Notes under the pieces: model-generated
What the model saw: the letters and a program-made list of their open reading frames with translations, nothing else
Database searches by the model: none
Told to the model about the DNA's origin: nothing
Shown: piece after piece, positions 19,455 to 31,750 of the stretch
Layout: every line of letters starts with the position of its first letter
How positions within the stretch are numbered: the first letter of the stretch is position 1
Origin: a virus
DNA: 31,750 bases
Virus record (IMG/VR): IMGVR_UViG_3300000230_000006
Span: 9,842-41,591 of that record
Strand: one strand, 5' to 3'
Translations under genes and position numbers: made by a program

Positions 19455-19835
19455 TTAATGTTCTAATAAGAATGTCTCCGGTTTTTTATCAATTAATTTT
19501 TCAATATTACCTTGCGACATTATTATTGTATTTGGAACACTACCGGGTTTACCATTGATTTTCGATTGAATCACATCTTTTGTTTTAGCACCACGATTAT
19601 GGCTTAATCTTTCAAGTTCACTATTCAACCATTCGACAATTGCATCTGGATTATGACATTTCTGATTTGTATCACCAAATTCTGTATCCCAATCAATTTC
19701 ATTTAATGATTGTGCTCTGGGCAACGTACTTAAAAATTGTTCTTTGGTTAAGTGCCTAATATTATTTTCATTAATTGGTAACTTGGTTACACCGAACATC
19801 ATTTCAAATAATCGCTGTTTTGTATCTTTAGCCAT
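19455..19835 (-). CDS. Unknown protein with the shared N-terminal 'KQRLFEMM' module
   Basis: A 126-residue protein of unknown fold. Its N-terminus, AKDTKQRLFEMM, matches the openings of three other proteins in this window (25942-26946, 27013-27354, 27398-27652: DSKQxLxExM). Beyond that module it has no resemblance to them: NENNIRHLTKEQFLSTLPRA, then EIDWDTEFGDTN, a helical stretch AIVEWLNSELERLSHNRG, and NTIIMSQGNIEKLI. Sharing only the N-terminus suggests a sorting or packaging signal rather than homology. It is the first gene of a three-gene unit with a late motif at 19865-19873 and is followed by the nucleotidyltransferase. Confidence 0.7.
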   Translation of the reverse strand: MAKDTKQRLFEMMFGVTKLPINENNIRHLTKEQFLSTLPRAQSLNEIDWDTEFGDTNQKCHNPDAIVEWLNSELERLSHNRGAKTKDVIQSKINGKPGSVPNTIIMSQGNIEKLIDKKPETFLLEH

Positions 19836-22826: not shown

Positions 22827-22857
22827 TAATATTATCCAATAAAAATCAATCACAATA

Positions 22858-22866
22858 GTATTTATA
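22858..22866 (+). promoter_or_regulatory. Late promoter motif GTATTTATA before a structured non-coding region
   Basis: AGTATTTATA on the plus strand with no long gene behind it. What follows is a 5-codon open frame (ATG at 22868), a set of hairpins and a terminator. Confidence 0.5.
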
Positions 22867-22872
22867 TATGAA

Positions 22873-23023
22873 AGTCATTGCTTAATCACTGTATTAAGTT
22901 AAGTCTGAAATTCAGGTATGATTTTTAAATTTTATCGCCAGTCAGTGGCTATGTAAAATTTAAAACTTTACTGAGATATTTAATGTAATAATTGCACTCG
23001 TAAAAAAAGTGCAATTATTTTTT
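22873..23023 (+). ncRNA. Candidate structured small RNA
   Basis: About 150 bases between a late motif (22858) and an intrinsic terminator (22989-23023) without a real gene. The sequence can form four successive hairpins: CTTAAT/ATTAAG (22881-22898), CTGAA/TTCAG (22905-22915), a 12-bp perfect stem TTTTAAATTTTA/TAAAATTTAAAA (22923-22965) topped by GCCA/TGGC with loop GTCAG, and the terminator stem. The only open frame is MKVIA. The transcript start is estimated, not seen. It could also be a leader whose downstream gene was lost. Confidence 0.5.
22989..23023 (+). terminator. Intrinsic terminator of the small RNA
   Basis: A 10-bp perfect stem TAATTGCACT/AGTGCAATTA with a 9-base loop, followed by six T. 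Confidence 0.85.
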
Positions 23024-23030
23024 AAAAAAA

Positions 23031-23061
23031 TTTGGAGTTAATGTAACTTTTATTACCTTTG
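23031..23061 (+). promoter_or_regulatory. Bacteroidetes-type (early) promoter of the Pro/His/Gln tRNA operon
   Basis: TTTG at 23031-23034, a 19-base spacer, then TACCTTTG at 23054-23061. This matches the Bacteroidetes housekeeping consensus TTTG-N19-21-TAnnTTTG. About 35 bases around it are nearly identical to the promoter at 27726-27756. Confidence 0.8.
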
Positions 23062-23065
23062 TAAC

Positions 23066-23074
23066 GTATTTATA
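23066..23074 (+). promoter_or_regulatory. Late motif GTATTTATA overlapping the early start region
   Basis: CGTATTTATA lies 5 bases after the -7 box of the early promoter, so the operon may also be read late. In the second copy (27762) the motif is altered to GTATTTAAA. Confidence 0.4.
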
Positions 23075-23081
23075 AACTCAA

Positions 23082-23095
23082 GCCTAATATTAGGC
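23082..23095 (+). promoter_or_regulatory. 14-base perfect palindrome in the leader
   Basis: GCCTAATATTAGGC, directly after the promoter region. It could be a repressor site or a 5' mRNA hairpin. The second tRNA operon lacks it. Confidence 0.4.
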
Positions 23096-23122
23096 AAAAC
23101 AATTAACGATTAATAAATAGAA

Positions 23123-23200
23123 ATGATGAAAACTTTTACACATACTCAACCCCAACCGCAACAACATCCACAAAATGTTGAATGGGAATGTTATGCTTGA
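23123..23200 (+). CDS. Pro/Gln/His-rich leader peptide of a tRNA operon
   Basis: A 25-codon open frame beginning ATGATG. Codons 7-17 read HTQPQPQQHPQ: two His, five Gln and three Pro in eleven residues. The peptide ends NVEWECYA. Every tRNA decoded downstream with confidence carries Pro, His or Gln. The frame lies between a Bacteroidetes-type promoter and a strong intrinsic terminator (23227-23269) that itself stands just before the first tRNA. Bases 23177-23186, at codons 19-21, can pair with the 5' arm of that terminator. This is the arrangement of amino-acid-operon attenuators such as the his leader, here placed before tRNA genes. That it is translated and acts by stalling is inference; a small functional peptide is the alternative. 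Confidence 0.7.
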   Translation: MMKTFTHTQPQPQQHPQNVEWECYA

Positions 23201-23245
23201 AAGGACTAATCAAAAACTTTAAGTTAAACAAAAACCCCACTCAAC
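23177..23245 (+). promoter_or_regulatory. Antiterminator pairing of the tRNA-operon attenuator
   Basis: GTTGAATGGG (23177-23186) can pair with CCCACTCAAC (23236-23245) in 9 of 10 positions (one A-C mismatch). This pairing excludes the terminator stem, which uses 23235-23239. CCCCAAC at 23150-23156, inside the leader codons, can in turn pair with GTTG and GGG of the antiterminator strand, giving the usual third state. Confidence 0.6.
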
Positions 23246-23269
23246 TAATGAATGGGGTTTTTGTTTTTT
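23227..23269 (+). terminator. Attenuator terminator before the tRNA cluster
   Basis: A 13-bp perfect stem (AACAAAAACCCCA with TGGGGTTTTTGTT), a 13-base loop and a T run. It stands 4 bases upstream of the first tRNA, so the tRNAs can be made from this promoter only if it is bypassed. Confidence 0.85.
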
Positions 23270-23273
23270 ATAT

Positions 23274-23345
23274 CTGGTAGAGAGACTAAGGTAGCAACGT
23301 GCCCTTGGAAGGCATGGGTAGTTCGTTCGATTCGAACCTATCAGA
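23274..23345 (+). tRNA. tRNA-Pro(UGG), D-arm poorly formed
   Basis: The acceptor CTGGTAG/CTATCAG pairs over 7 bases, the anticodon stem is GTGCC/GGCAT with loop CTTGGAA (anticodon TGG), and the T-arm is GTTCG/CGAAC with loop TTCGATT. CCA is encoded at 23346-23348. The D-arm segment (18 bases) does not fold into a normal stem, so this copy may be partly degenerate. An intact tRNA-Pro with the same anticodon lies at 24185. Confidence 0.65.
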
Positions 23346-23381
23346 CCAAATATTGGTTCTTTGATGTATTGTATTAATATG

Positions 23382-23454
23382 GTGTTTATAGCTTAATTGG
23401 TAAAGCGCATGACTGTGAATCATGTAGATGTGGAATCATCCTCCATTAAACGCC
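23382..23454 (+). tRNA. tRNA-His(GUG), T-loop atypical
   Basis: The acceptor GTGTTTA/TAAACGC pairs, the D-arm is GCTT/AAGC, and the anticodon stem is CATGA/TCATG with loop CTGTGAA (anticodon GTG). A G precedes position 1 and C follows position 72, as in tRNA-His. The T-arm GTGGA/TCCAT has loop ATCATCC without the usual TTC. Its last 9 bases overlap the stop end of the opposite-strand endonuclease gene. Confidence 0.7.
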
Positions 23455-24114
23455 CAATTTATTATTAATTATTTTAGTGATGGTTGATAAAAATGTTATT
23501 GATAATTGTTCTTTAAAATATTTTTGATGTGATGTATCAATTACACATAGCTCAATTCCTTGTTCAATACAGGCTTGAAATTTACGTTGGTCATTGTTTT
23601 GTGTTTTAATAAATTTTTCTTCAGTAAAAATCTGTTCATAATGGAAAATACCGTTAAGTTCAAATGCGAGTTTAAGTGATGGTATGTAAACATCTAATTC
23701 AGAATTAATTGTATCTTTTTGATTATAATGAATTTCTAAATTTGGATATAATTCAGTTAATTTAATTTCGACATATTTTTCAAGTTTAGACCTACAATTA
23801 CCTTTGGTTTTATGTTTGTTATTATATGTTGCTGCGCATGAACGTGAACAAAAATTTTTTTCAGTTATTTCAGACAGTTGCCTCACAAATTGTTTATTAC
23901 ATTCTTTACAATTAATGTGTATTCTCGTATCACTACCCTTTTGTTTACAATTAACTGAACAATATTTTAATTTAACAGTTCTATGATTATTAATTACTTT
24001 ATTTATTTCTTTTTTTATGTTGTAAAATGTATTTCCACAATATTCACATTTTAATGGTAACTTTTCGGTTGCTCTATAGCTTTTGAGTGTTGTAATATCA
24101 AATAGTGGTGTCAT
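23446..24114 (-). CDS. Homing endonuclease of the PD-(D/E)XK (Vsr/EDxHD-like) type
   Basis: A 222-residue protein inserted in the tRNA cluster on the opposite strand. The N-terminal half carries zinc-binding pairs: CEYCGNTF, YCSVNC, CKECNKQF and CSRSC (residues about 23-94), typical of DNA-recognition zinc fingers in phage homing enzymes. The C-terminal half has LEIHYNQ, then SELDVYIPSLKLAFELNG (D141, E152) followed by FHYEQ, and later ELCVID: the order seen in Vsr-like/EDxHD homing nucleases. A late motif lies 16 bases before the start. Its last codons and stop lie within the 3' end of tRNA-His (9-base overlap), so insertion without damage to the tRNA required an exact junction. It probably spreads the surrounding tRNA segment between related phages. 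Confidence 0.75.
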   Translation of the reverse strand: MTPLFDITTLKSYRATEKLPLKCEYCGNTFYNIKKEINKVINNHRTVKLKYCSVNCKQKGSDTRIHINCKECNKQFVRQLSEITEKNFCSRSCAATYNNKHKTKGNCRSKLEKYVEIKLTELYPNLEIHYNQKDTINSELDVYIPSLKLAFELNGIFHYEQIFTEEKFIKTQNNDQRKFQACIEQGIELCVIDTSHQKYFKEQLSITFLSTITKIINNKLGV

Positions 24115-24130
24115 ATTTTGTTTAATTTAT

Positions 24131-24139
24131 TATAAATAC
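24131..24139 (-). promoter_or_regulatory. Late promoter motif GTATTTATA before the endonuclease gene
   Basis: AGTATTTATA on the minus strand, 16 bases before the endonuclease start. Confidence 0.55.
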
Positions 24140-24184
24140 TGAAAAATAAATTTCGAAACGAATCTTACACCCAAATAATTTTAT

Positions 24185-24259
24185 GGCGTAGTTGGGGAGA
24201 GGTCACCCCGCCTGCTTTGGGAGCAGGACAACTCGTGAGTTCGAATCTCACCTATGCCA
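24185..24259 (+). tRNA. tRNA-Pro(UGG)
   Basis: The acceptor GGCGTAG/CTATGCC pairs, the D-stem is GGGG/CCCC, the anticodon stem is CCTGC/GCAGG with loop TTTGGGA (anticodon TGG), and the T-arm is GTGAG/CTCAC with loop TTCGAAT. All arms are regular. CCA is not encoded. Confidence 0.9.
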
Positions 24260-24261
24260 CT

Positions 24262-24332
24262 GTGTTGTTAGCTTATCTGGTAAAAGTGCCATACTGTGAA
24301 TATGGAGACAGGGTTCGAGTCCCTACAACACC
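24262..24332 (+). tRNA. tRNA-His(GUG)
   Basis: The acceptor GTGTTGT/ACAACAC pairs, the anticodon stem is CCATA/TATGG with loop CTGTGAA (anticodon GTG), and the T-loop is TTCGAGT on an AGGG/CCCT stem. It starts 2 bases after tRNA-Pro. The base before position 1 is T, not the G usual for tRNA-His. Confidence 0.85.
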
Positions 24333-24335
24333 CAA

Positions 24336-24395
24336 ATAACGGTAACACACGACACATTGACTGTCGTATTTCAGGTTCGAATCCTGATAGGTCAA
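24336..24395 (+). pseudogene. 5'-truncated tRNA-Gln-like remnant
   Basis: A normal 3' part: D-loop end AACGGTAACAC, a stem CGACA/TGTCG with TTG in the anticodon position, T-arm TCAGG/CCTGA with loop TTCGAAT, and a 3' strand TAGGTCA. The 5' acceptor strand (TGACCTA expected) and the first half of the D-stem are missing; the 3' end of tRNA-His occupies that place. The base before the anticodon is A instead of the universal T. The D-loop end is identical to that of tRNA-Gln(CUG) at 24493, suggesting common origin. Confidence 0.55.
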
Positions 24396-24401
24396 CAATA
24401 T

Positions 24402-24484
24402 TGTCCTCTGGCAGAATGGCTATTGCATCACCCTTTGAAGGTGACACCCGCAAGGGTTTACAGGTTCGAGTCCTGTGGGGATAA
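24402..24484 (+). tRNA. tRNA with long variable arm and UUG (Gln) anticodon
   Basis: The acceptor TGTCCTC/GGGGATA pairs, with T1-A72 as in tRNA-Gln. The D-stem is 3 bp (GCA/TGC), the anticodon stem is TCACC/GGTGA with loop CTTTGAA (anticodon TTG), and the T-arm is ACAGG/CCTGT with loop TTCGAGT. Between anticodon and T-arms lies a 15-16-base variable arm with the hairpin ACCC-GCAA-GGGT, which is normally found only in Leu, Ser and Tyr tRNAs. A shift to a Ser anticodon (TGA) breaks the stem. Confidence 0.8.
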
Positions 24485-24492
24485 CTTTACAT

Positions 24493-24563
24493 TACCAAAT
24501 GGTGTAACGGTAACACTCGACCCTCTGGAGGTTGCGTTCTTGGTTCGAATCCAAGTTTGGTTA
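24493..24563 (+). tRNA. tRNA-Gln(CUG)
   Basis: The acceptor TACCAAA/TTTGGTT pairs except for the first position (T-T; a weak 1-72 pair is usual for tRNA-Gln). The D-stem is GTGT/ACAC, the anticodon stem is CGACC/GGTTG with loop CTCTGGA (anticodon CTG), and the T-arm is CTTGG/CCAAG with loop TTCGAAT. Confidence 0.85.
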
Positions 24564-24608
24564 CAAAATAATTATAGACGATAGATTTTCAATAAAAAAA
24601 CCAATAAT

Positions 24609-25013
24609 ATGACGTATAATCTTTTTTTAGACGATATCCGTGAACCTGAACATTGTTTGAGTTATACCCATAATCAAATATATGATGCATTGGATTGGAT
24701 TGTTGTACGTAGTTACGATGAGTTTATTGGGTGTGTTGAATCTATGGGTATTCCCGAAGTAATTAGTTTTGACCATGACCTTGCTGATGAGCATTATGAC
24801 CCGGACTTATATGGTAGTGAAACCTACAATGAAGTGTATGATAATTTTGAATTTAAAACCGGATATGATTGCGCTAAATGGTTTATCGATTACATAATTG
24901 ATAACAATTTACAACTACCCGATACTATTATGATTCACTCAATGAATCCTGTTGGTGCATTAAATATCAAATCATTGTTTGATACATATAATAAAGTTAT
25001 GGGAAAGGATTAA
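24609..25013 (+). CDS. Cyclic-phosphate-processing receiver-domain protein (cREC_REC-like)
   Basis: A 134-residue protein, compact and acidic. It starts NLFLDDIREPE (about 4-14), has the strand-motif VISFDHDLADEHYDPD (about 51-66), then TGYDCAKWFIDYII (about 83-96), and ends PDTIMIHSMNPVGALNI (about 104-120). This set (LDDxR, SFDHDL, TGxDCAxW, HSMNPVGAxNI) is that of the receiver-like domain family named for predicted cyclic-phosphate processing, with Asp and His residues that could bind metal. It follows the tRNA cluster by 45 bases and has no late motif, so it may be read through from the tRNA operon. A role in repair of RNA ends, for instance of cut tRNAs, is an appealing but untested idea. 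Confidence 0.7.
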   Translation: MTYNLFLDDIREPEHCLSYTHNQIYDALDWIVVRSYDEFIGCVESMGIPEVISFDHDLADEHYDPDLYGSETYNEVYDNFEFKTGYDCAKWFIDYIIDNNLQLPDTIMIHSMNPVGALNIKSLFDTYNKVMGKD

Positions 25014-25026
25014 TATAACATTATAC

Positions 25027-25035
25027 GTATTTATA
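25027..25035 (+). promoter_or_regulatory. Late promoter motif GTATTTATA
   Basis: CGTATTTATA on the plus strand, 12 bases before the ATG at 25048. Two earlier ATG codons (25035, 25041) lead to a stop after a few codons and are not used. Confidence 0.6.
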
Positions 25036-25047
25036 TGAAAATGCGTA

Positions 25048-25890
25048 ATGAACATTAATAAAATAATCAAAGAAGAGATTTCAAATTTAAGTGAGTACCT
25101 AACTCATGAAGGTGTTGGCTTAATGAGATATTTTTCAATGACCGATGCTGAAAAGATTGGATATTTACCTGAAGGTTACCCATACGAATATTTATTTAAT
25201 GATTTCCTTGAAGAAACGGATACAGATTATAGTGGCAGTCAATATACTGATTCCGATGGTAATGATATTCCAAACGATGAAGAATTTGAAATATATAACG
25301 TGCCAGAACCAATTAAACGAAAGTATGGTTTGTGGTTATTCAAACAAATTAATAATCATTCCTTAAATATTGAAGATAGTGAATACCCTGCTTGGAGTTA
25401 TTTCGATAGACCAACCTTAATTAAAAATCAATGGCTTATTCATTTCACTGCTGATGCAGATAGTATTGCTAATAATGGATTTATTTATGGTGTTGATGAT
25501 GTAGATAAATTGGGATTAACTACACATTTATCTGATTTCGAAAAAAAATATGGTGGATATAATTTCTCATATGAATTATCGGATTTCATTAGATATGGTA
25601 AAACCAATAGGTCATGGCAAAGCCAAGAATATAAGTATGGTAAAGAAGCAGTAATATTTAGAGCATCTGGTGTAAAACTATGGCATCATACTGATGAAGA
25701 GCCACAAGTTATTTTCTATGGAAAAACAGCAACAAACATAATTCCAATTACGAGTGGTGAAGACAAGAAATATGGTGTTCATAGTAGTAGGAATAACGAA
25801 TTACTGTATGAGTCAGATGACATGGAAGACGTTGTGGATTGGCTGGTAAAAAATTATGCACAATATAGAAAGCATTTATATAATAAATAA
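25048..25890 (+). CDS. Unknown protein, 280 residues; weak resemblance to ADP-ribosyltransferase-fold phage proteins
   Basis: It begins with MNINKIIKEEISNLSEYL, a helical opening like that of the 193-residue gene at 22221. Then comes an acidic, aromatic region. The middle reads QWLIHFTADADSIANNGFIY (about 129-148), later YGGYNFSYELSDF, then YGKEAVIFRASGVKLWHHTD and PQVIFYGKTATNIIPI (about 203-240). The pattern 'LIHFT...I..NGF..G ... GY.F.Y ... E.QVIF.G' resembles proteins with the ADP-ribosyltransferase/DarT-like 'H-x-T ... I...G' layout, but the catalytic Glu cannot be assigned, so the call is weak. Its late motif and position before the internal-protein-like genes suggest a virion or injected protein. 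Confidence 0.6.
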   Translation: MNINKIIKEEISNLSEYLTHEGVGLMRYFSMTDAEKIGYLPEGYPYEYLFNDFLEETDTDYSGSQYTDSDGNDIPNDEEFEIYNVPEPIKRKYGLWLFKQINNHSLNIEDSEYPAWSYFDRPTLIKNQWLIHFTADADSIANNGFIYGVDDVDKLGLTTHLSDFEKKYGGYNFSYELSDFIRYGKTNRSWQSQEYKYGKEAVIFRASGVKLWHHTDEEPQVIFYGKTATNIIPITSGEDKKYGVHSSRNNELLYESDDMEDVVDWLVKNYAQYRKHLYNK

Positions 25891-25899
25891 GTATTTATC
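25891..25899 (+). promoter_or_regulatory. Late promoter motif GTATTTATC for the three-gene unit 25942-27652
   Basis: GTATTTATC on the plus strand directly after the stop of the 280-residue gene and 42 bases before the next start. No further motif is seen before 27013 or 27398. Confidence 0.45.
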
Positions 25900-25941
25900 C
25901 TTAAATGGATTAATAATAAATTATAATAACAACATTACAAT

Positions 25942-26946
25942 ATGAAAAAACCTGATAGTAAACAAAGACTTATTGAGGTCATGACAAGATTAGATAAGAC
26001 ATTCAAATCAAAACCTGAAATCATTAAAGAAACATTTGAACCTGATTATAGCAAGGGTGAATATTTTTACGATAAACTCGAAGAAATAATTAATCAAATG
26101 CAACAAGCTGGCTACGATAATCAAGCAATTTTATCTGAAGTTAATAAAATATTGGGTATTGAAGACGACCTCGGAGAAGGTCGTTTAGCTAATTTAGCTG
26201 CTGGTGTTGGAATGGCAGCAGGCACAATGTTTGGTGGTGGTGCTCAAGCACAGACAACAGCACCAATAAATAAACCCGGTATGGAACAAGCAGATTATAG
26301 TTTAATGAATGATTATTATGTTGGTATTGCAACTAAATTAGCTGCTGAAGCTAAACAAAAGGGTGATACTCAATCAGAAATCGCATACAATAAAATCGCA
26401 CAACATTATAAGGGTGGTAATACATCTGAATTATCTGCTGGTTTAAAACCATATATGGATAATATAATTAAAACTCAACAGAGTGCAAGTCATAATGATA
26501 TTGTTAATTATGTTAGGGGTGTTAATGAATCTGAAGTTGAAGAAGGCAGAATGGCTAATTTGGCAGCAGGTATTGGAATGGCAGCAGGCACAATGTTTGG
26601 TGGTGGTGCTCAAGCACAACAAATGGTATCTGCAGCACCAATGAATAAACCCGGTATGGAACAAACCGACAATAAAGTTCAAGATGCTGATGTGATAAGT
26701 GCAATACTTGGTGTTAACGATATGAAGTTAAGTAATGCAGTACATGCTGGTGATACTGCAACATTAGCAATACATCGTGAAATTAAAGAATACTTTTTAA
26801 ATAAAAGGGATGGTAAAGAAATTAAAAAATTATCGCCAGCAGCAGTAGAAGCAGCAAAAAAAATAGGTGCTGAAATAAATAAAATGTCTTATGATTTATA
26901 TAATCAAACTACGGCTTATGGTAAAACTGTTAGAAGTGCAAATTAA
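25942..26946 (+). CDS. Internal-protein-like protein with the shared N-terminal module and two Gly/Ala repeats
   Basis: A 334-residue protein. The N-terminus KPDSKQRLIEVMTRLDKTF shares its pattern with three other proteins in the window. After a helical part (about 35-75) there are two copies of a 40-residue repeat: EGRLANLAAGVGMAAGTMFG (about 78-97) with GGAQAQ, ending NKPGMEQ, and EGRMANLAAGIGMAAGTMFG (about 200-219) with the same ending. The LAAG..MAAG segment is hydrophobic, like a membrane-inserting helix or signal peptide ending in AQA, but it is internal. Helical Ala/Lys-rich parts follow each copy. The family is not recognised. It could be packaged in the head and act on or in the host envelope after injection; this is inference. 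Confidence 0.7.
   Translation: MKKPDSKQRLIEVMTRLDKTFKSKPEIIKETFEPDYSKGEYFYDKLEEIINQMQQAGYDNQAILSEVNKILGIEDDLGEGRLANLAAGVGMAAGTMFGGGAQAQTTAPINKPGMEQADYSLMNDYYVGIATKLAAEAKQKGDTQSEIAYNKIAQHYKGGNTSELSAGLKPYMDNIIKTQQSASHNDIVNYVRGVNESEVEEGRMANLAAGIGMAAGTMFGGGAQAQQMVSAAPMNKPGMEQTDNKVQDADVISAILGVNDMKLSNAVHAGDTATLAIHREIKEYFLNKRDGKEIKKLSPAAVEAAKKIGAEINKMSYDLYNQTTAYGKTVRSAN
26207..26252 (+). repeat. 46-base direct repeat, copy 1
   Basis: Identical over 46 bases to 26573-26618 within the same gene. It encodes GMAAGTMFGGGAQA and neighbours. Exact identity at DNA level points to a recent duplication or gene conversion. Confidence 0.85.
26573..26618 (+). repeat. 46-base direct repeat, copy 2
   Basis: Second copy of the repeat at 26207-26252, 366 bases (122 codons) further on and in the same frame. 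Confidence 0.85.
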
Positions 26947-27012
26947 TCAACATCGTCATCCGGAATACAACAAATGAATTAAATAATCAATAAGCAATAA
27001 TAAATTAAAAAT

Positions 27013-27354
27013 ATGAAACCATCTAAAGACAGCAAACAAATGCTTTTCGAAATGATGGGTAAACTTGATAAATCATTTAAACCTAAAGCTGAAATCCTTA
27101 ACGAATGGAATTTCGATAAGAAAAATGGCGAAGATAAAGAATCAAAAGAACACGAAGAAAAAGAAGAAAAGGAAGAAACTGGCAAGAAAAAATATAACTT
27201 CGAGAAAAAAGAAGGTGAAGAATCTAAAGAACATGAAGAGTCTAAAACTCCGGAAGAAGAAAATGAAGAGCACGAAGACAAGAAAGAGCTTGATGAAGTT
27301 AAACCTAAAACAAAAATACCTGTAAATATGATTGCAAAGGTTGGCGGTAAATGA
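27013..27354 (+). CDS. Highly charged internal-protein-like protein with the shared N-terminal module
   Basis: A 113-residue protein made of the N-terminal module DSKQMLFEMMGKLDKSFKPK (residues 6-25) followed by a Lys/Glu-only-like region (about 35-95: ESKEHEEKEEKEETGKKK and similar) and a short tail KIPVNMIAKVGGK. Such composition is unlike an enzyme and like the small head-internal proteins of T4-type phages, which are packaged by an N-terminal signal and trimmed by the prohead protease. The module contains LFE, which fits the (L/I)-x-E cleavage rule of T4 gp21. The packaging role is inference. It is second in the unit 25942-27652. Confidence 0.65.
   Translation: MKPSKDSKQMLFEMMGKLDKSFKPKAEILNEWNFDKKNGEDKESKEHEEKEEKEETGKKKYNFEKKEGEESKEHEESKTPEEENEEHEDKKELDEVKPKTKIPVNMIAKVGGK
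27034..27063 (+). repeat. 30-base identity between two neighbouring gene starts, copy 1
   Basis: Identical to 27413-27442. It encodes the KQMLFEMMGK part of the shared N-terminal module, which shows recent copying of that module between genes. Confidence 0.85.
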
Positions 27355-27397
27355 AGTGGTAAGGGTCTAAGTATTAAATAATGTTTATAACTGTGTG

Positions 27398-27652
27398 ATG
27401 AAGAAAGATAGTAAACAAATGCTTTTCGAAATGATGGGTAAATTAGACCCAACATTCGATAATGTAAATGAACTTGTTATTTCTGAAGATATAAGTGTTG
27501 ATGTAAATGTTGGTGATACTATTATGACTGGCAGATTTAAAAATAAACGAACAGTTGTGAAGACAATTGGAAAAGACGAACACGGTATGCCAACTATTAA
27601 TGGTAAGAAAGTAGTAACATTTAGAAAGACTAATGAAAAAAATAGTAAATAA
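27398..27652 (+). CDS. Small protein with the shared N-terminal module
   Basis: An 84-residue protein. MKKDSKQMLFEMMGKLDPTF is nearly the same as the opening of the 113-residue neighbour, including 30 identical bases of DNA. The rest is different: DISVDVNVGDTIMTGRFKN and RTVVKTIGKDEHGMPTING look like a small beta-barrel (SH3-like, 'G-D-x-x-x-x-G-x-x-x-N'). The ATG at 27398 is preferred over the GTG one codon earlier. It is third in the unit, with no own late motif. That two unrelated bodies carry one N-terminus argues that the module is a targeting signal. No function can be named. Confidence 0.65.
   Translation: MKKDSKQMLFEMMGKLDPTFDNVNELVISEDISVDVNVGDTIMTGRFKNKRTVVKTIGKDEHGMPTINGKKVVTFRKTNEKNSK
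27413..27442 (+). repeat. 30-base identity between two neighbouring gene starts, copy 2
   Basis: Copy of 27034-27063. Confidence 0.85.
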
Positions 27653-27725
27653 TAATAAAAACACATAAATTTCTTAGTTGATTATCGATAAGTTAGAAAA
27701 TAAATCAAAAATATTTTAAAAAAAG

Positions 27726-27756
27726 TTTGCAGATAATGTAACTTTTAGTAACTTTG
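27726..27756 (+). promoter_or_regulatory. Bacteroidetes-type (early) promoter of the Asp tRNA operon
   Basis: TTTG at 27726-27729, a 19-base spacer, TAACTTTG at 27749-27756. The stretch AATGTAACTTTTA and the following CTTTGTAACGTATTTA are the same as at 23039-23072, so the two promoters are duplicates. Confidence 0.8.
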
Positions 27757-27832
27757 TAACGTATTTAAATGAAAATACAATAATGATAAACAAGATTTTT
27801 TAAATAGTATAAACAAAATAAAAATTACAACA

Positions 27833-27943
27833 ATGAAAAAAGTACTCGACATATTATTAGTAGTCTTAGCGGTTGACCTATTGTGGGCAGCAATGGAGGA
27901 TGATTGTAAAGTTATCGGGTTCACTGATATTATTGATTGGTAA
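27833..27943 (+). CDS. Short hydrophobic peptide with tandem Asp codons; candidate leader of the Asp tRNA operon
   Basis: A 36-residue open frame. It starts MKKVLDILLVVLAVDLLWAA, which could be a membrane segment, and continues MEDDCKVIGFTDIIDW. Six of 36 residues are Asp, with a GAT GAT pair at 27899-27904. It takes the same place between duplicated promoter and terminator as the Pro/Gln/His-rich leader at 23123, and the tRNAs behind it are both tRNA-Asp. Bases 27914-27921, just after the Asp pair, can pair with the terminator's 5' arm. It may therefore be an attenuator leader, but the hydrophobic part leaves a real small membrane protein as an equal alternative. Confidence 0.6.
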   Translation: MKKVLDILLVVLAVDLLWAAMEDDCKVIGFTDIIDW

Positions 27944-27976
27944 TTTCTAATCACAATATTAATTAAAAAACTCGAT
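27914..27976 (+). promoter_or_regulatory. Possible antiterminator pairing of the Asp tRNA operon
   Basis: ATCGGGTT (27914-27921, inside the leader gene) can pair with AACTCGAT (27969-27976, the terminator's 5' arm) over 8 positions with one G-T pair. It mimics the terminator's own 3' arm (TTCGGGTT). Confidence 0.45.
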
Positions 27977-27997
27977 TCGAGAGATTCGGGTTTTTTT
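27966..27997 (+). terminator. Intrinsic terminator before tRNA-Asp
   Basis: A 10-bp stem AAAAACTCGA/TCGGGTTTTT (one T-G pair), with a loop of about 10 bases and a T run. It lies between the leader-like peptide and the tRNA. Confidence 0.75.
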
Positions 27998-28035
27998 GTT
28001 TTAAGGTCTTTGACATATTGGAAATTTAAGAATAA

Positions 28036-28067
28036 TTGGAGTGGGTTACAAATACAATCCACTCCAA
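28036..28067 (+). other. 9-bp perfect hairpin directly upstream of tRNA-Asp
   Basis: TTGGAGTGG (28036-28044) and CCACTCCAA (28059-28067) around a 14-base loop, ending 5 bases before the tRNA. It has no T run, so a processing or stability element is more likely than a terminator. Confidence 0.55.
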
Positions 28068-28072
28068 AATAA

Positions 28073-28150
28073 CGTCTTATGTGCTCGACTGGCGTGCGAG
28101 AATTGGGCTGTCACCCCTCTAAAACAAGGGTTCAAATCCCTTTGAGACGG
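28073..28150 (+). tRNA. tRNA-Asp(GUC), irregular
   Basis: The acceptor CGTCTTA/TGAGACG pairs, the D-stem is CTCG/CGAG, the T-arm is AAGGG/CCCTT with loop TTCAAAT, and position 73 is G (usual for tRNA-Asp). The anticodon loop CTGTCAC gives GTC, but only three pairs (GGG/CCC) of the anticodon stem form and four bases instead of two separate acceptor and D-stem. It may be degenerate; a regular tRNA-Asp with the same anticodon is at 28936. Confidence 0.6.
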
Positions 28151-28198
28151 CATTGATAATCATGTTGTTACGAATTTTTATTAAAAATATTACTGTTT

Positions 28199-28231
28199 TT
28201 TGAACTATGACAGTTTTTATTTGTAAATTTG
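28199..28231 (+). promoter_or_regulatory. Bacteroidetes-type promoter of the HNH gene, nearly leaderless
   Basis: TTTG at 28199-28202, a 21-base spacer, TAAATTTG at 28224-28231. The ATG follows 4 bases after the -7 box, so the expected transcript start is at or just beyond the start codon. Confidence 0.6.
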
Positions 28232-28235
28232 TATC

Positions 28236-28945
28236 ATGAAGAACGAAAAATATCAAAAAGAATCATTTACGTTAATTGTTTTAAATTCAAACAATTTAAC
28301 CGATGTTGCAAAAAATTTGGGTTTGGTTGCATATTGTGGCAATCGTAACACAATAAAGAAATATATTAAATTATATGATATTGATGTATCACATTTTAAT
28401 ATTGATAATACAAAAAAAAGAGTTGTAAAAAAATTGATTTATCTAAAATATTGGTAATTAATTCTACATATAGTACAACTAATTTAAAATATCGTTTATA
28501 TGATGAAAATTTAAAAGAACGTAAATGCGAATTATGTGGACAAACTGAAGATTGGCAAGGTAAACATATGAGTTTGATTCTTGACCATATAAATGGTATT
28601 AACGATGACCATAGATTGGTAAATTTGAGAATCGTTTGTCCAAATTGTAATGCAACATTACCAACACATAGTGGTAAAAACGTTGGTAATAGCAAATATA
28701 AAAACATTATTAATGGTAATGTCATTAAAAAATATTGTGGTTGCGGTAAAATTATTGAAAATAAGGTAAATAAATGTAATAATTGTGATTCATATAAACA
28801 GCGTAAAGTAGATAGACCACCGCTTGAACAATTAATATCAGAAGTGATTGAATTAGGTTATTCAGGTACTGGTAGAAAGTATAATGTTAGTGACAATGCA
28901 ATTAGAAAATGGATTAGATTTTATGAAAAGCACACACCCTCGTAG
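28236..28945 (+). CDS. HNH homing endonuclease in two frames (-1 frameshift at A AAA AAA)
   Basis: The first frame encodes a helix-turn-helix-like N-terminal domain (NLTDVAKNLGLVAYCGNRNT, about 22-41; KKYIKLYDIDVSHF) and stops at 28455-28457. The -1 frame continues without loss: IDLSKILVINSTYSTTNLKY, then CELCGQ, LILDHINGINDDHRLVNLRI and CPNCNATLPTHSGKN, the HNH core with zinc cysteines, and an end domain with SGTGRKYNVSDNAIRKWI. The joined protein is 236 residues and has the usual layout of free-standing phage HNH enzymes. The frames meet at 28427-28433, A AAA AAA in the zero frame, a classic -1 slippery heptamer. Programmed slippage, a one-base deletion or a homopolymer reading error all fit. 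The stop TAG lies inside tRNA-Asp (10-base overlap). Confidence 0.8.
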
Positions 28946-29009
28946 TTCAGTTGGTCAGAATGGGGCACTGTCTATGCTCAGGTCGCCCGTTCAAGTCGGG
29001 TCGGGGGTT
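28936..29009 (+). tRNA. tRNA-Asp(GUC)
   Basis: The acceptor ACCCTCG/CGGGGGT pairs, the D-stem is GTTC/GAAT, the anticodon stem is GGGCA/TGCTC with loop CTGTCTA (anticodon GTC), and the T-arm is GCCCG/CGGGT with loop TTCAAGT. Its first 10 bases carry the end of the HNH gene. Confidence 0.85.
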
Positions 29010-29085
29010 AATCAACAGCTAACTAAATTTTAACAAAATCTACAAAAAAATATTAAAATTTAACAATAATTTAACATAAAAACAG

Positions 29086-29093
29086 TACTTTTG
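29086..29093 (+). promoter_or_regulatory. Possible -7 box of the IS607-type operon
   Basis: TACTTTTG fits TAnnTTTG and lies 20 bases before the ATG at 29114, but no TTTG is seen about 19-21 bases upstream of it. Confidence 0.35.
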
Positions 29094-29113
29094 ACAAATT
29101 AAAAAGTATATAT

Positions 29114-29332
29114 ATGAGAAAGCAAATTAATAAAGTAATGGAGAACCTAAAAAATAAATCGTTGAAAGTGGTTCGAGTTGATAAAACCGAATTCGAACTT
29201 GATAACGGTGATGTATATCCAATTCCATTCGAGTTGGATGTCGATGAGGATATATCGATTGAAGAGTTCCAGAAGATTTTGGATTCTTCGAAAGAGACTA
29301 TCCTAAAAATATTAGATAAAACGAATGAGTAA
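29114..29332 (+). CDS. Small unknown protein, first gene of the IS607-type unit
   Basis: A 72-residue acidic protein; not recognised. It has a basic start (MRKQINKVMENLKNKSLKVV), a beta-like middle (KTEFELDNGDVYPIPFELD) and a helical end (SIEEFQKILDSSKETILKIL). It overlaps the recombinase start by 8 bases (ATGAGTAA), which implies coupled translation, and its codon use looks like that of the recombinase rather than of the phage genes. It is therefore likely element cargo or a regulator of transposition. Confidence 0.6.
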   Translation: MRKQINKVMENLKNKSLKVVRVDKTEFELDNGDVYPIPFELDVDEDISIEEFQKILDSSKETILKILDKTNE

Positions 29333-29969
29333 ACTATTAACCATTGCACAAACATCTAAGATTTTAAATGTTTCTCAGAACACTCTGAGAAATTGGGATA
29401 GAGTGAATATCAACATCACACCGATAAAAACAGTTGGTGGTCATCGTAGATATAGGGAGGATGATGTTAATAAGTTTATCGGTGAGTTAAAAGTAGAAAG
29501 CGTATCAAATACCGTTGTCACCTACGCTCGTGTGAGTTCACATGAACAGAAAACGAAAGGTGATTTGGATAGACAATCACAACGACTATCTGAGTACTGT
29601 GCGAAGAAGAAGTACGTGGTTCATCACATCATCAAGGATGTTGGCTCTGGACTATCGGATACACGAACTGGATTTGTAAGAATGGTTGACTTAGTAATTA
29701 AGAAGAAGATTAATAAGGTGGTCATCGAGAATAAAGATAGGCTAACCAGATTTCAGTTCAACTTGATTAAGGAGTTCTTCAACAGTTATGACGTAGAGAT
29801 TGAGTGTGTGGATAATGTGAACATATCGAACGAGGAAGAGTTTGTGAATGATATCATGATGCTTATGGCATCATTCTCTGGTAAGTTGTACGGAAAGAGA
29901 AGTGTCAAACGTAAGAAAGAGATTAAAGAACAAAAATTGAGAGATAAATTAAATGAAAATAAAATTTGA
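29325..29969 (+). CDS. tnpA: IS607-family serine recombinase TnpA
   Basis: A 214-residue transposase. Residues 1-55 form a MerR-like helix-turn-helix (TIAQTSKILNVSQNTLRNWD; VGGHRRYREDDVNKF). Residues from 63 on form a resolvase-type catalytic domain: VVTYARVSSHEQK with the nucleophilic Ser at about 71, DLDRQSQRL, then IIKDVGSGLSDTRTGF, VVIENKDRLTRF and MMLMASFSGKLYGKRS. These motifs and the domain order (DNA-binding domain first) are those of IS607 TnpA, not of IS605 Y1 transposases. The length is normal, and all catalytic landmarks are present, so the enzyme may be active. Confidence 0.92.
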   Translation: MSKLLTIAQTSKILNVSQNTLRNWDRVNINITPIKTVGGHRRYREDDVNKFIGELKVESVSNTVVTYARVSSHEQKTKGDLDRQSQRLSEYCAKKKYVVHHIIKDVGSGLSDTRTGFVRMVDLVIKKKINKVVIENKDRLTRFQFNLIKEFFNSYDVEIECVDNVNISNEEEFVNDIMMLMASFSGKLYGKRSVKRKKEIKEQKLRDKLNENKI

Positions 29970-29975
29970 GAAATT

Positions 29976-30293
29976 ATGAAAACAAAAGAACTACTGAAAT
30001 CCTTAACTGTTAATTCGTCCAATATCAATGGAATGAATGGTTTGTTTGGTAAAGAGTTAAAAATTATTGAACCGTTTATTAAGGAATTGGATGAGTTTAA
30101 AGAAGTTAAACATGTTGAAATTGAATGTGATTTTGAAGTCTTTACTCCATCAAATAATCCAAGTGAAAAACATATTGAATTAGTGACTTGTAAATTATCT
30201 GATTGTATGTTCAGTGAATCTATATTGATGTATGGGTTATTTATTTCGGATGATGAAGTGATGATAAGATGTGCAAATTTTTCATTAAGGTAA
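29976..30293 (+). CDS. Unknown protein between tnpA and tnpB
   Basis: A 105-residue protein; not recognised. The first half is helical (KELLKSLTVNSSNINGMNGL; LKIIEPFIKELDEFKEV), and the second half has beta strands (KHVEIECDFEVFTPSNN; EVMIRCANFSL). Three Cys residues do not form a clear metal site. It starts 6 bases after the tnpA stop and ends 10 bases before tnpB, so it is part of the same transcript. Standard IS607 elements have no gene here; it could be captured cargo, or a gene coming from the phage, since it appears more AT-rich than its neighbours. Confidence 0.6.
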   Translation: MKTKELLKSLTVNSSNINGMNGLFGKELKIIEPFIKELDEFKEVKHVEIECDFEVFTPSNNPSEKHIELVTCKLSDCMFSESILMYGLFISDDEVMIRCANFSLR

Positions 30294-30303
30294 ATCATTA
30301 CTA

Positions 30304-31398
30304 ATGAAACTAATTAGGTCAACCAAGTGTAGTCTGAAATTCAGTACACAGAAAAAGAAGAATGAGTTGTTAATCATCTTAGACGAGTACTCTAAGGTGG
30401 TTAACTTCTTCATCAACTATTTCTGGTTAAATCCTACTATCATGAGCAAAGGTAGTCTACTAAAACCTGTTGTTGACTTACCACAAGAATCTTGGCTATC
30501 TGCACGATTACGTAAAGTTGCTGCACGAGAAGCAATTGATATGATTAACGCCAGCAAAGAACGTTGGAAGAATAAAGCAGTTATCCCTGTTCATAAAGGT
30601 AATCGGATGTACGTGAGTTGTACCATTGCTGATTTGATACCAAGTAAACTATCTACTGAGTTTGATGCTTGGTTACACCTTGCATCAATCGGTAATAAGA
30701 AAATATTAGACCTACCGATTAAGTATCATAAGCACTTTAATAAGTATAACCTAACAGGTAAACGTCTGAACTCGTATATTATCACCAAGAACTATGTTCA
30801 GTTCAGTTTTGAGATAATTACACTACCAAAACGTGAAGGAAAACTTTGCATCGGTATTGATACTGGTATTAATGCATTAGCATCGTTGAATAATGGTAAG
30901 CAGTATGGTTTAGATATTAAGGAATATATTGAACGAGTTAAGCGTTGTGTACAGGGGAGTAAAGGATATTACGTGGCAAAACGAGCGTTGAAGCAACGTA
31001 TCGATGAGGTTGCCATTGAAATAGTAAATACAGAGAACCCAGATTTAATAGTTGTAGAAAAACTAAAGAGTATGGGCAAAAAGTCAAAAGCCAAACGTTT
31101 ATTGGCTAAAAGTATTAGACGTTCTATCGGAACATGGAATTGGAAGTACTGGTTGAAAAGGTTGGAAGCACAGTGTGAGACTAATCGTATTAGTTTTCGC
31201 AGTGTAGCACCTTATTACACCAGTACGACCTGTCCTGTTTGTGGTCACTCTGATAGGGGGAATCGATTGGGAGAAGTATTCTTGTGTCTAAAGTGTGGTC
31301 ACAAAGACAATGCAGATATTAACGCTGGCAAGAATATTTTGAATCGATTTCTCACAGGACAATACGGTGTCTGTTACAAAGAAGTTAGTCTGATTTAG
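30304..31398 (+). CDS. tnpB: TnpB RNA-guided nuclease
   Basis: A 364-residue protein with the RuvC and zinc-finger architecture of TnpB. The catalytic acids are LCIGIDTGINALASL (D186), LIVVEKLKSMG (E252) and DNADINAGKNI (D338). The zinc ribbon is CPVCG ... CLKCG (C310, C313, C328, C331), and VAPYYTSTTCP is the usual lead-in. All three acids and all four cysteines are present, so the nuclease may be active; the length is near the usual 370-400. TnpB uses an RNA made from the 3' end of its own gene and the element's right end as a guide, and cuts next to a short motif matching the element's left-end flank. Here that guide would read into the tRNA gene at 31500. Confidence 0.93.
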   Translation: MKLIRSTKCSLKFSTQKKKNELLIILDEYSKVVNFFINYFWLNPTIMSKGSLLKPVVDLPQESWLSARLRKVAAREAIDMINASKERWKNKAVIPVHKGNRMYVSCTIADLIPSKLSTEFDAWLHLASIGNKKILDLPIKYHKHFNKYNLTGKRLNSYIITKNYVQFSFEIITLPKREGKLCIGIDTGINALASLNNGKQYGLDIKEYIERVKRCVQGSKGYYVAKRALKQRIDEVAIEIVNTENPDLIVVEKLKSMGKKSKAKRLLAKSIRRSIGTWNWKYWLKRLEAQCETNRISFRSVAPYYTSTTCPVCGHSDRGNRLGEVFLCLKCGHKDNADINAGKNILNRFLTGQYGVCYKEVSLI

Positions 31399-31645: not shown

Positions 31646-31728
31646 GCTGGCTTATACAAGTGGCTAAAGTAAGCACCCTTTCAAGGTGTTACCGTAAGGT
31701 TTCGTGGATTCGAATTCCACAGTCAGTA
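31646..31728 (+). tRNA. tRNA with long variable arm and UUC (Glu) anticodon
   Basis: The acceptor GCTGGCT/AGTCAGT pairs (two G-T pairs), the D-stem is 3 bp (TAC/GTA), the anticodon stem is GCACC/GGTGT with loop CTTTCAA (anticodon TTC), and the T-arm is GTGGA/TCCAC with loop TTCGAAT. The 14-base variable arm can form ACC-GTAA-GGT. It shows the same unexpected combination as the tRNA at 24402. Confidence 0.75.
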
Positions 31729-31750
31729 CAATTTATTTTCATCATTTCAC

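Follow-up and report, generated by a model that had tools for sequence, protein, structure and literature searches.

The 31,750 nucleotide (nt) stretch of DNA analyzed here (the window) encompasses bases 9842–41591 of a 54,860-base virus record, IMGVR_UViG_3300000230_000006 (G000). It displays transfer RNA (tRNA) operons that open with a short open reading frame (ORF), the leader, which is rich in codons for the amino acids of the tRNAs that follow. Each of these phage tRNA operons is very probably controlled by ribosome-mediated transcription attenuation. Three such units are present in the record of the window's phage and four in its relatives, all with a promoter, a short ORF, a terminator and tRNAs. 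To judge from the predicted tRNA genes, the tRNA set of these phages is complete or almost so and is divided among up to four operons. A preliminary description of the window had proposed a leader-peptide attenuator for a single Pro/His/Gln operon. The attenuator is supported by the sequence; in place of one operon, however, the phages appear to have a system of four that together serve all 20 amino acids. The basis in sequence is the anatomy of the loci, the composition match, the alternative pairings with their covariation, and the recurrence in other phages; from these we infer leader translation, ribosome stalling, termination, read-through and the biological signal.

The leader ORF, in which codons for the operon's own tRNAs predominate, would be translated during transcription. 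When the cognate charged tRNAs are plentiful the ribosome would reach the stop codon, and strand 2 (the antiterminator strand) would be covered, or hidden again by strand 1. The terminator would then form and the tRNAs would not be made. When one cognate charged tRNA is scarce the ribosome would stall in the control codons and leave strand 2 free, and the free strand would pair with the 5′ arm of the terminator so that the operon is read. With tRNA as its product, each operon would regulate itself by negative feedback on the tRNAs that decode its leader.

The Pro/His/Gln operon (type 1) displays all of its elements at the positions given in the preliminary description, by sequence and by ARAGORN (Table 1). 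Codons 7–17 of the leader read HTQPQPQQHPQ, and the control codons are at positions 23141–23173. At the phage's amino acid (aa) frequencies, a run with at least 10 of 11 residues in the set Q, P and H has p = 2.5e-10 per position, and p rises to about 3e-5 when every start position on either strand of the record is counted. A chance origin of the run is very unlikely. The terminator stem is 14 base pairs long with a single C.A mismatch, and its loop measures 7 nt (positions 23229–23263); a T run follows to position 23269. The leader strand GTTGAATGGG (23177–23186) and the terminator strand CCCACTCAAC (23236–23245), which had been predicted to pair, match at 9 of 10 positions. Folding of the leader region, proposed earlier as a check, shows that it folds much better than shuffled sequence (z = −5.6).

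Related leaders were sought in 2.9 million viral contigs (IMG/VR) with two kinds of query, i.e. control codons and RNA-only patterns that contain no control codons. The leader, terminator and tRNA design is found in dozens of further viral contigs. All 28 matches of the type-1 RNA-only pattern are Q/P/H-rich leaders followed by tRNA-Pro/His/Gln, and all nine matches of the AATCGGG version have cognate tRNAs; eight of these are Lys/Tyr leaders and the other is of type 4. Long related contigs (up to 365 kilobases, kb) have four operons, and their order is constant wherever all were read. The 78 distinct leaders fall into type 1 (Pro/His/Gln, 34 leaders), type 2 (Asp/Glu/Val/Leu/Ala/Trp/Met, 18), type 3 (Lys/Tyr, 16) and type 4 (Thr/Cys/Asn/Ile/Ser/Phe/Gly/Arg, 10), the last from the fourth operon of the related contigs. 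Combined, the four operons supply every one of the 20 amino acids with a tRNA. Both strands of 708 kb from these phages were read for the combination of promoter, short ORF and terminator; it occurs 40 times, and all 40 occurrences are these leaders.

The Q, P and H codons of the type-1 leader match the tRNAs of the operon, as had been noted, and the leaders of the three other operons likewise match their own tRNAs. Across 12 phages, every one of the 20 amino acids is found in the leader that heads its tRNA's operon, and 19 of the 20 are commonest in their own operon's leader, the exception being Met. The mean own-operon fraction of leader residues is 0.61, compared with a maximum of 0.52 in 200,000 permutations of the amino acid labels (p about 5e-6, which is only a guide given the kinship of the leaders). 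Covariation of leader codons with the tRNA set, the check proposed for related phages, is seen as paired gains and losses, with exceptions that are taken up below. In leader L037 of phage G015, the type-1 leader has gained an Arg codon (CGC) and the first tRNA of the operon is tRNA-Arg(ACG). In the same phage Val is gone from the type-2 leader core and tRNA-Val is gone from the type-2 operon. The type-4 locus of G016 has gained both Leu codons in its leader and a tRNA-Leu gene downstream. G004 has no tRNA-His; its leader is without the His of HPQ and retains one earlier His codon.

The cognate-codon leader ORF, the terminator before the operon and a protecting pairing between strands 1 and 2 are all present. 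When each leader ORF is folded alone, the 5′ part hides strand 2. Swapping halves among leaders weakens this closed fold (p ≤ 5e-5, ≤ 5e-5 and 3.8e-3 for types 2, 3 and 4, and 0.039 for type 1), and in type 3, 88.5% of cells pair, compared with 39–47% with slid partners. The partners in strand 2 and the terminator 5′ arm are GAATGGGG with CCCCATTC in type 1, GTCGGG with CCCGAC in type 2, and GAATCGGG with CCCGATTC in type 3; those of type 4 are variable. The mutually exclusive antiterminator is strong in types 2 and 3 and partial in type 4, where pairing exceeds a synonymous-codon null that preserves the peptide in 16 of 18, 16 of 16 and 6 of 10 leaders, respectively. In type 1 it is significant only against dinucleotide shuffles (33 of 34 leaders). 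Terminator swaps among leaders of the same type weaken the pairing in types 2, 3 and 4 (p = 3.5e-4, 1.6e-3 and 1.1e-2, respectively). Stall geometry was scored by a simple 13-nt footprint rule. By this rule, of the own-set codons upstream of strand 2, 77–100% are distant enough for a ribosome stalled on them to leave the strand free. Once at the stop codon, the ribosome would occlude strand 2 in types 1 and 2 and a large part of it in type 4.

The leader ORFs might instead encode functional small proteins or sequence-specific arrest peptides (cf. TnaC, SecM), the composition match being a by-product. This appears improbable. Some leader segments are well conserved, i.e. QPQQHP, LLWA, SYKK and IFCS; however, order, length and residues vary, mostly within the own-tRNA set. 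The type-1 core of G017 is reordered (HQPQQPQHPQ) with the downstream tRNAs unchanged, and the type-4 leader of G016 is also reordered. The four peptides are distinct, each is matched to its own tRNAs, and none has a Pfam or PHROG family match. In addition, the C-terminal peptide shifts with the reading frame, whereas the RNA strand is constant: in L008, L074 and G017 a frame change removes the Glu-Trp-Gly (EWG) peptide and GAATGGG is retained. Because these frame changes spare the strand and destroy EWG, they argue that selection at GAATGGG acts on the RNA and not on the peptide. A constant peptide with synonymous-only change and unrelated tRNAs, which the preliminary description took as the pattern that would speak against an attenuator, was sought. 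The opposite was seen, i.e. length and order vary, Q, P and H are kept, and Pro/His/Gln tRNAs are downstream.

A general sensor of translation rate, with any stalling (host shut-off, antibiotics) opening all four operons and codon content of minor importance, has a similarly small probability. Because the closed fold covers the whole leader, a ribosome halted at nearly any point could disrupt it. Such a sensor would nevertheless have no need of four leaders whose amino acid sets are nearly disjoint and operon-matched, and the gains and losses that occur in pairs in G015 and G016 would be unexplained.

Direct sensing of tRNA by the leader RNA, with the ORF incidental, is suggested by the fact that both the product and the supposed signal are tRNA. 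The T-box riboswitch reads the charging state of tRNA in this manner, and controls translation-related operons by antitermination; it binds the tRNA directly and has no leader ORF, and differs in this from the phage units. An Rfam scan of positions 22850–29100 shows only tRNA at the gathering score, with no His, Trp, Leu, Thr or Phe leader and no T-box, and neither a T-box nor any other cis-regulatory family matches the region at E ≤ 1. The control sequence is made up of codons read in frame, and nothing characteristic of a T-box was seen; this explanation is very improbable. Equally remote is a decorative ORF arisen by chance or shared ancestry before ordinary terminators that insulate the tRNA operons: leaders within one type are clearly related, but the four distinct matched leaders, the covarying RNA strands and the composition p values contradict it.

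Several points weigh against attenuation by ribosome stalling. The type-2 operons of G010 and G012 are without some tRNAs whose codons the leader keeps, and some type-4 tRNAs are without core codons, i.e. Pro in G017, Gln in G009 and Met in G001. Type-1 pairing is no better than the synonymous-codon null, because the Glu-Trp-Gly codons fix the strand. The type-1 pairing of strands 2 and 3 also shows no covariation in the terminator swap test (p = 0.78), because it is nearly invariant. The window's own type-2 antiterminator is weak and not significant, although 16 of 18 type-2 leaders are significant. In type 3 the stop codon is approximately 24 nt past strand 2, and a ribosome there would leave the strand uncovered; therefore re-folding after release would have to hide it again. 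Several structures were derived from the same sequences on which they were tested, and the permutation tests treat related leaders as more independent than they are.

In the enterobacterial trp, his, leu, thr and ilv leaders, a peptide rich in control codons is combined with strands 1-2-3-4 and a mutually exclusive antiterminator and terminator. Leaders may respond to more than one amino acid, e.g. Thr and Ile in thr, and Ile, Val and Leu in ilv. The phage leaders are similar in having control codons and alternative strands. They differ in that they control tRNAs and not biosynthetic enzymes, in that one leader serves up to eight amino acids, and in that four leaders divide all 20. The Escherichia coli pheST attenuator (PheM leader), in which cognate codons control phenylalanyl-tRNA synthetase, resembles the phage units as a cognate-codon attenuator on a component of translation; it serves a host synthetase and one amino acid, whereas the phage units serve viral tRNA genes and many amino acids. 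The sensitivity of codons in amino acid operon attenuation has been treated theoretically (PMC1183508).

Phage tRNAs rescue phages from tRNA-depleting defences, e.g. in T5, SP15, T6 and mycobacteriophages (PMC11555353, PMC10264068, PMC13096335). The tRNA arrays of those phages are comparable to the present ones in replacing depleted host tRNAs and in having homing endonucleases among the tRNA genes. No attenuator or leader control was found in the text of PMC11555353 and PMC10264068. XacN1 and other jumbo phages are large and have tRNAs for all 20 amino acids; XacN1 is thus like these phages in its full tRNA set, with no leader, promoter or terminator control described (PMC5852040). The preliminary description knew of no phage tRNA operon with such control, and no description of phage tRNA genes with attenuation, a leader peptide or an antiterminator was found in the open-licence PubMed Central (PMC) papers. 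The kind of mechanism is known; its use and organisation here are new within the reach of the searches.

No relative emerged from 50,697 phage records, which may lack entries close to the window, whether they were compared as DNA or with each of the four leader peptides. The 107 type-1 peptide matches among phage records lie in the RusA region of Streptococcus phages (E ≥ 0.9) and were rejected. Codons for QPQPQQHPQ gave 17 matches in 84,980 bacterial and archaeal species, none with cognate tRNAs downstream or a leader-like shape. Codon-blind type-1 and type-2 patterns gave no match in 395 genomes sampled from the phylum of a Bacteroidaceae bin, a set subject to the same possible omissions, and thus there is no sign of a host chromosomal source.

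The signal is likely loss of tRNA, by host shut-off or a tRNA-cleaving defence, rather than amino acid starvation. Loss of tRNA is the more sensible signal because the product is tRNA and not a biosynthetic enzyme; more uncharged tRNA would not cure starvation. It is also conceivable, and is suggested tentatively, that the four leader ORFs monitor the whole genetic code and re-supply precisely the tRNAs that run short in infection, most plausibly against host defence or shut-off. Such four-channel tRNA homeostasis would represent a virus-encoded sensor-response circuit against tRNA-depleting immunity.

The reason that phages carry tRNAs is a long-standing question. If a leader senses shortage of the tRNAs under its control, these tRNAs would be made on demand, and the codon-supply and anti-defence explanations would both be directly testable. 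Attenuation, known from amino acid synthesis, would then be seen to govern tRNA supply as well, one leader reading up to eight amino acids, and the leaders would be ready-made sensors of tRNA shortage.

Table 1. Features of the two tRNA operons of the window (window positions; G000 denotes positions in the virus record)
Feature	Position	Strand	Basis or remark
Bacteroidetes-type promoter, Pro/His/Gln operon: TTTG (23031–23034), 19 nt, TACCTTTG (23054–23061)	23031–23061	+	Sequence; near copy at 27726
Type-1 leader ORF MMKTFTHTQPQPQQHPQNVEWECYA	23123–23200	+	Homologues in relatives
Strand 1 (CCCA 23151–23154, CAACA 23159–23163), within control codons; predicted to pair with and hide strand 2	23151–23163	+	Folds; swap test p = 0.039, type 1
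Strand 2, putative antiterminator strand GTTGAATGGG, inside leader ORF, stop codon 11 nt downstream	23177–23186	+	Retained in L008, L074 and G017 despite frame change losing EWG
Intrinsic terminator; 5′ arm is strand 3 (alternative partner of strand 2), 3′ arm is strand 4	23229–23269	+	Sequence, folding
tRNA-Pro(TGG), starts 4 nt past T run	23274–23348	+	ARAGORN
tRNA-His(GTG)	23382–23455	+	ARAGORN; Rfam RF00005
HNH/homing-type endonuclease ORF, inserted in tRNA operon on opposite strand	23446–24114	-	PHROG 559, E = 1.2e-16
tRNA-Pro(TGG), copy 2	24185–24260	+	ARAGORN
tRNA-His(GTG), copy 2	24261–24333	+	ARAGORN
tRNA-Gln(TTG)	24402–24485	+	ARAGORN
tRNA-Gln(CTG)	24493–24564	+	ARAGORN
Promoter, second tRNA operon: TTTG, 19 nt, TAACTTTG	27726–27756	+	Near copy of 23031 promoter
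Type-2 leader ORF MKKVLDILLVVLAVDLLWAAMEDDCKVIGFTDIIDW, rich in D, E, V, L, A (also W, M)	27834–27944	+	
Type-2 strand 2 ATCGGGTT, complement of AACTCGAT (27969–27976); weak in window copy	27914–27921	+	Sequence
Intrinsic terminator, second operon	27968–27993	+	
tRNA-Asp(GTC), opens second operon	28073–28151	+	ARAGORN
tRNA-Asp(GTC), copy 2	28936–29009	+	ARAGORN
tRNA-Glu(TTC)	31646–31729	+	ARAGORN
Second operon beyond window: Glu, Val, Leu, Leu, Ala, Leu, Leu tRNAs	G000:42011–43879		

The second operon, with Asp, Glu, Val, Leu and Ala tRNAs, extends past the end of the window. The third unit is outside the window at G000:51485, where the leader MKTVNAYYKQYYYKRNVCETDITMSLSE is followed by tRNA-Lys, Lys, Tyr and Lys. 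Several type-2 leaders of other phages, e.g. L019, L071, L085 and L106, display a conserved (C)CTCCTTTCTT between the stop codon and the terminator. This stretch resembles the 3′ end of 16S ribosomal RNA (anti-Shine-Dalgarno) and is missing from the window's own type-2 leader.

HNH/homing-type endonucleases are present inside both window tRNA operons, at 23446–24114 and 28451–28945; the association of SegB with tRNAs offers a comparison (PMC13096335). Elsewhere the record has two sequences resembling the first endonuclease ORF, a partial copy with 78% identity and a fragment with 76% identity (G000:47327–47720 and 44545–44737). Between tRNA-Asp and tRNA-Glu of the second operon, positions 29325–31398 look like an IS607-type element, with a serine-recombinase transposase that has a MerR-type helix-turn-helix (29325–29969) followed by a TnpB/Cas12f-like protein (30304–31398). 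In the first operon a T-arm-like remnant, GGTTCGAATCC, is found between tRNA-His and tRNA-Gln at 24338–24396, where no tRNA was called; it is probably a decayed tRNA gene.

A tRNA with a CTA (amber) anticodon is located outside the window at G000:44739–44824 and recurs in G001, G002, G003 and G018. Because of this tRNA, amber-codon reassignment was considered. It was rejected: TAG ends 5 of 46 long ORFs in the record, and no conserved gene was seen that needs read-through.

The window's phage is T4-like, because its record has terminase, portal, prohead protease and gp23-like capsid genes. Its promoters have the form TTTG-N19-TANNTTTG, which we take to be the Bacteroidota type, and on account of this form the host is probably a member of that phylum. 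Similar N-termini (KQRLFEMM, KQRLIEVM and KQMLFEMM) are found on otherwise differing proteins at 19455–19835 (minus strand), 25942–26946 (plus strand) and 27013–27354 (plus strand). The common KQRLFEMM-like sequence is perhaps a capsid-targeting or propeptide signal.

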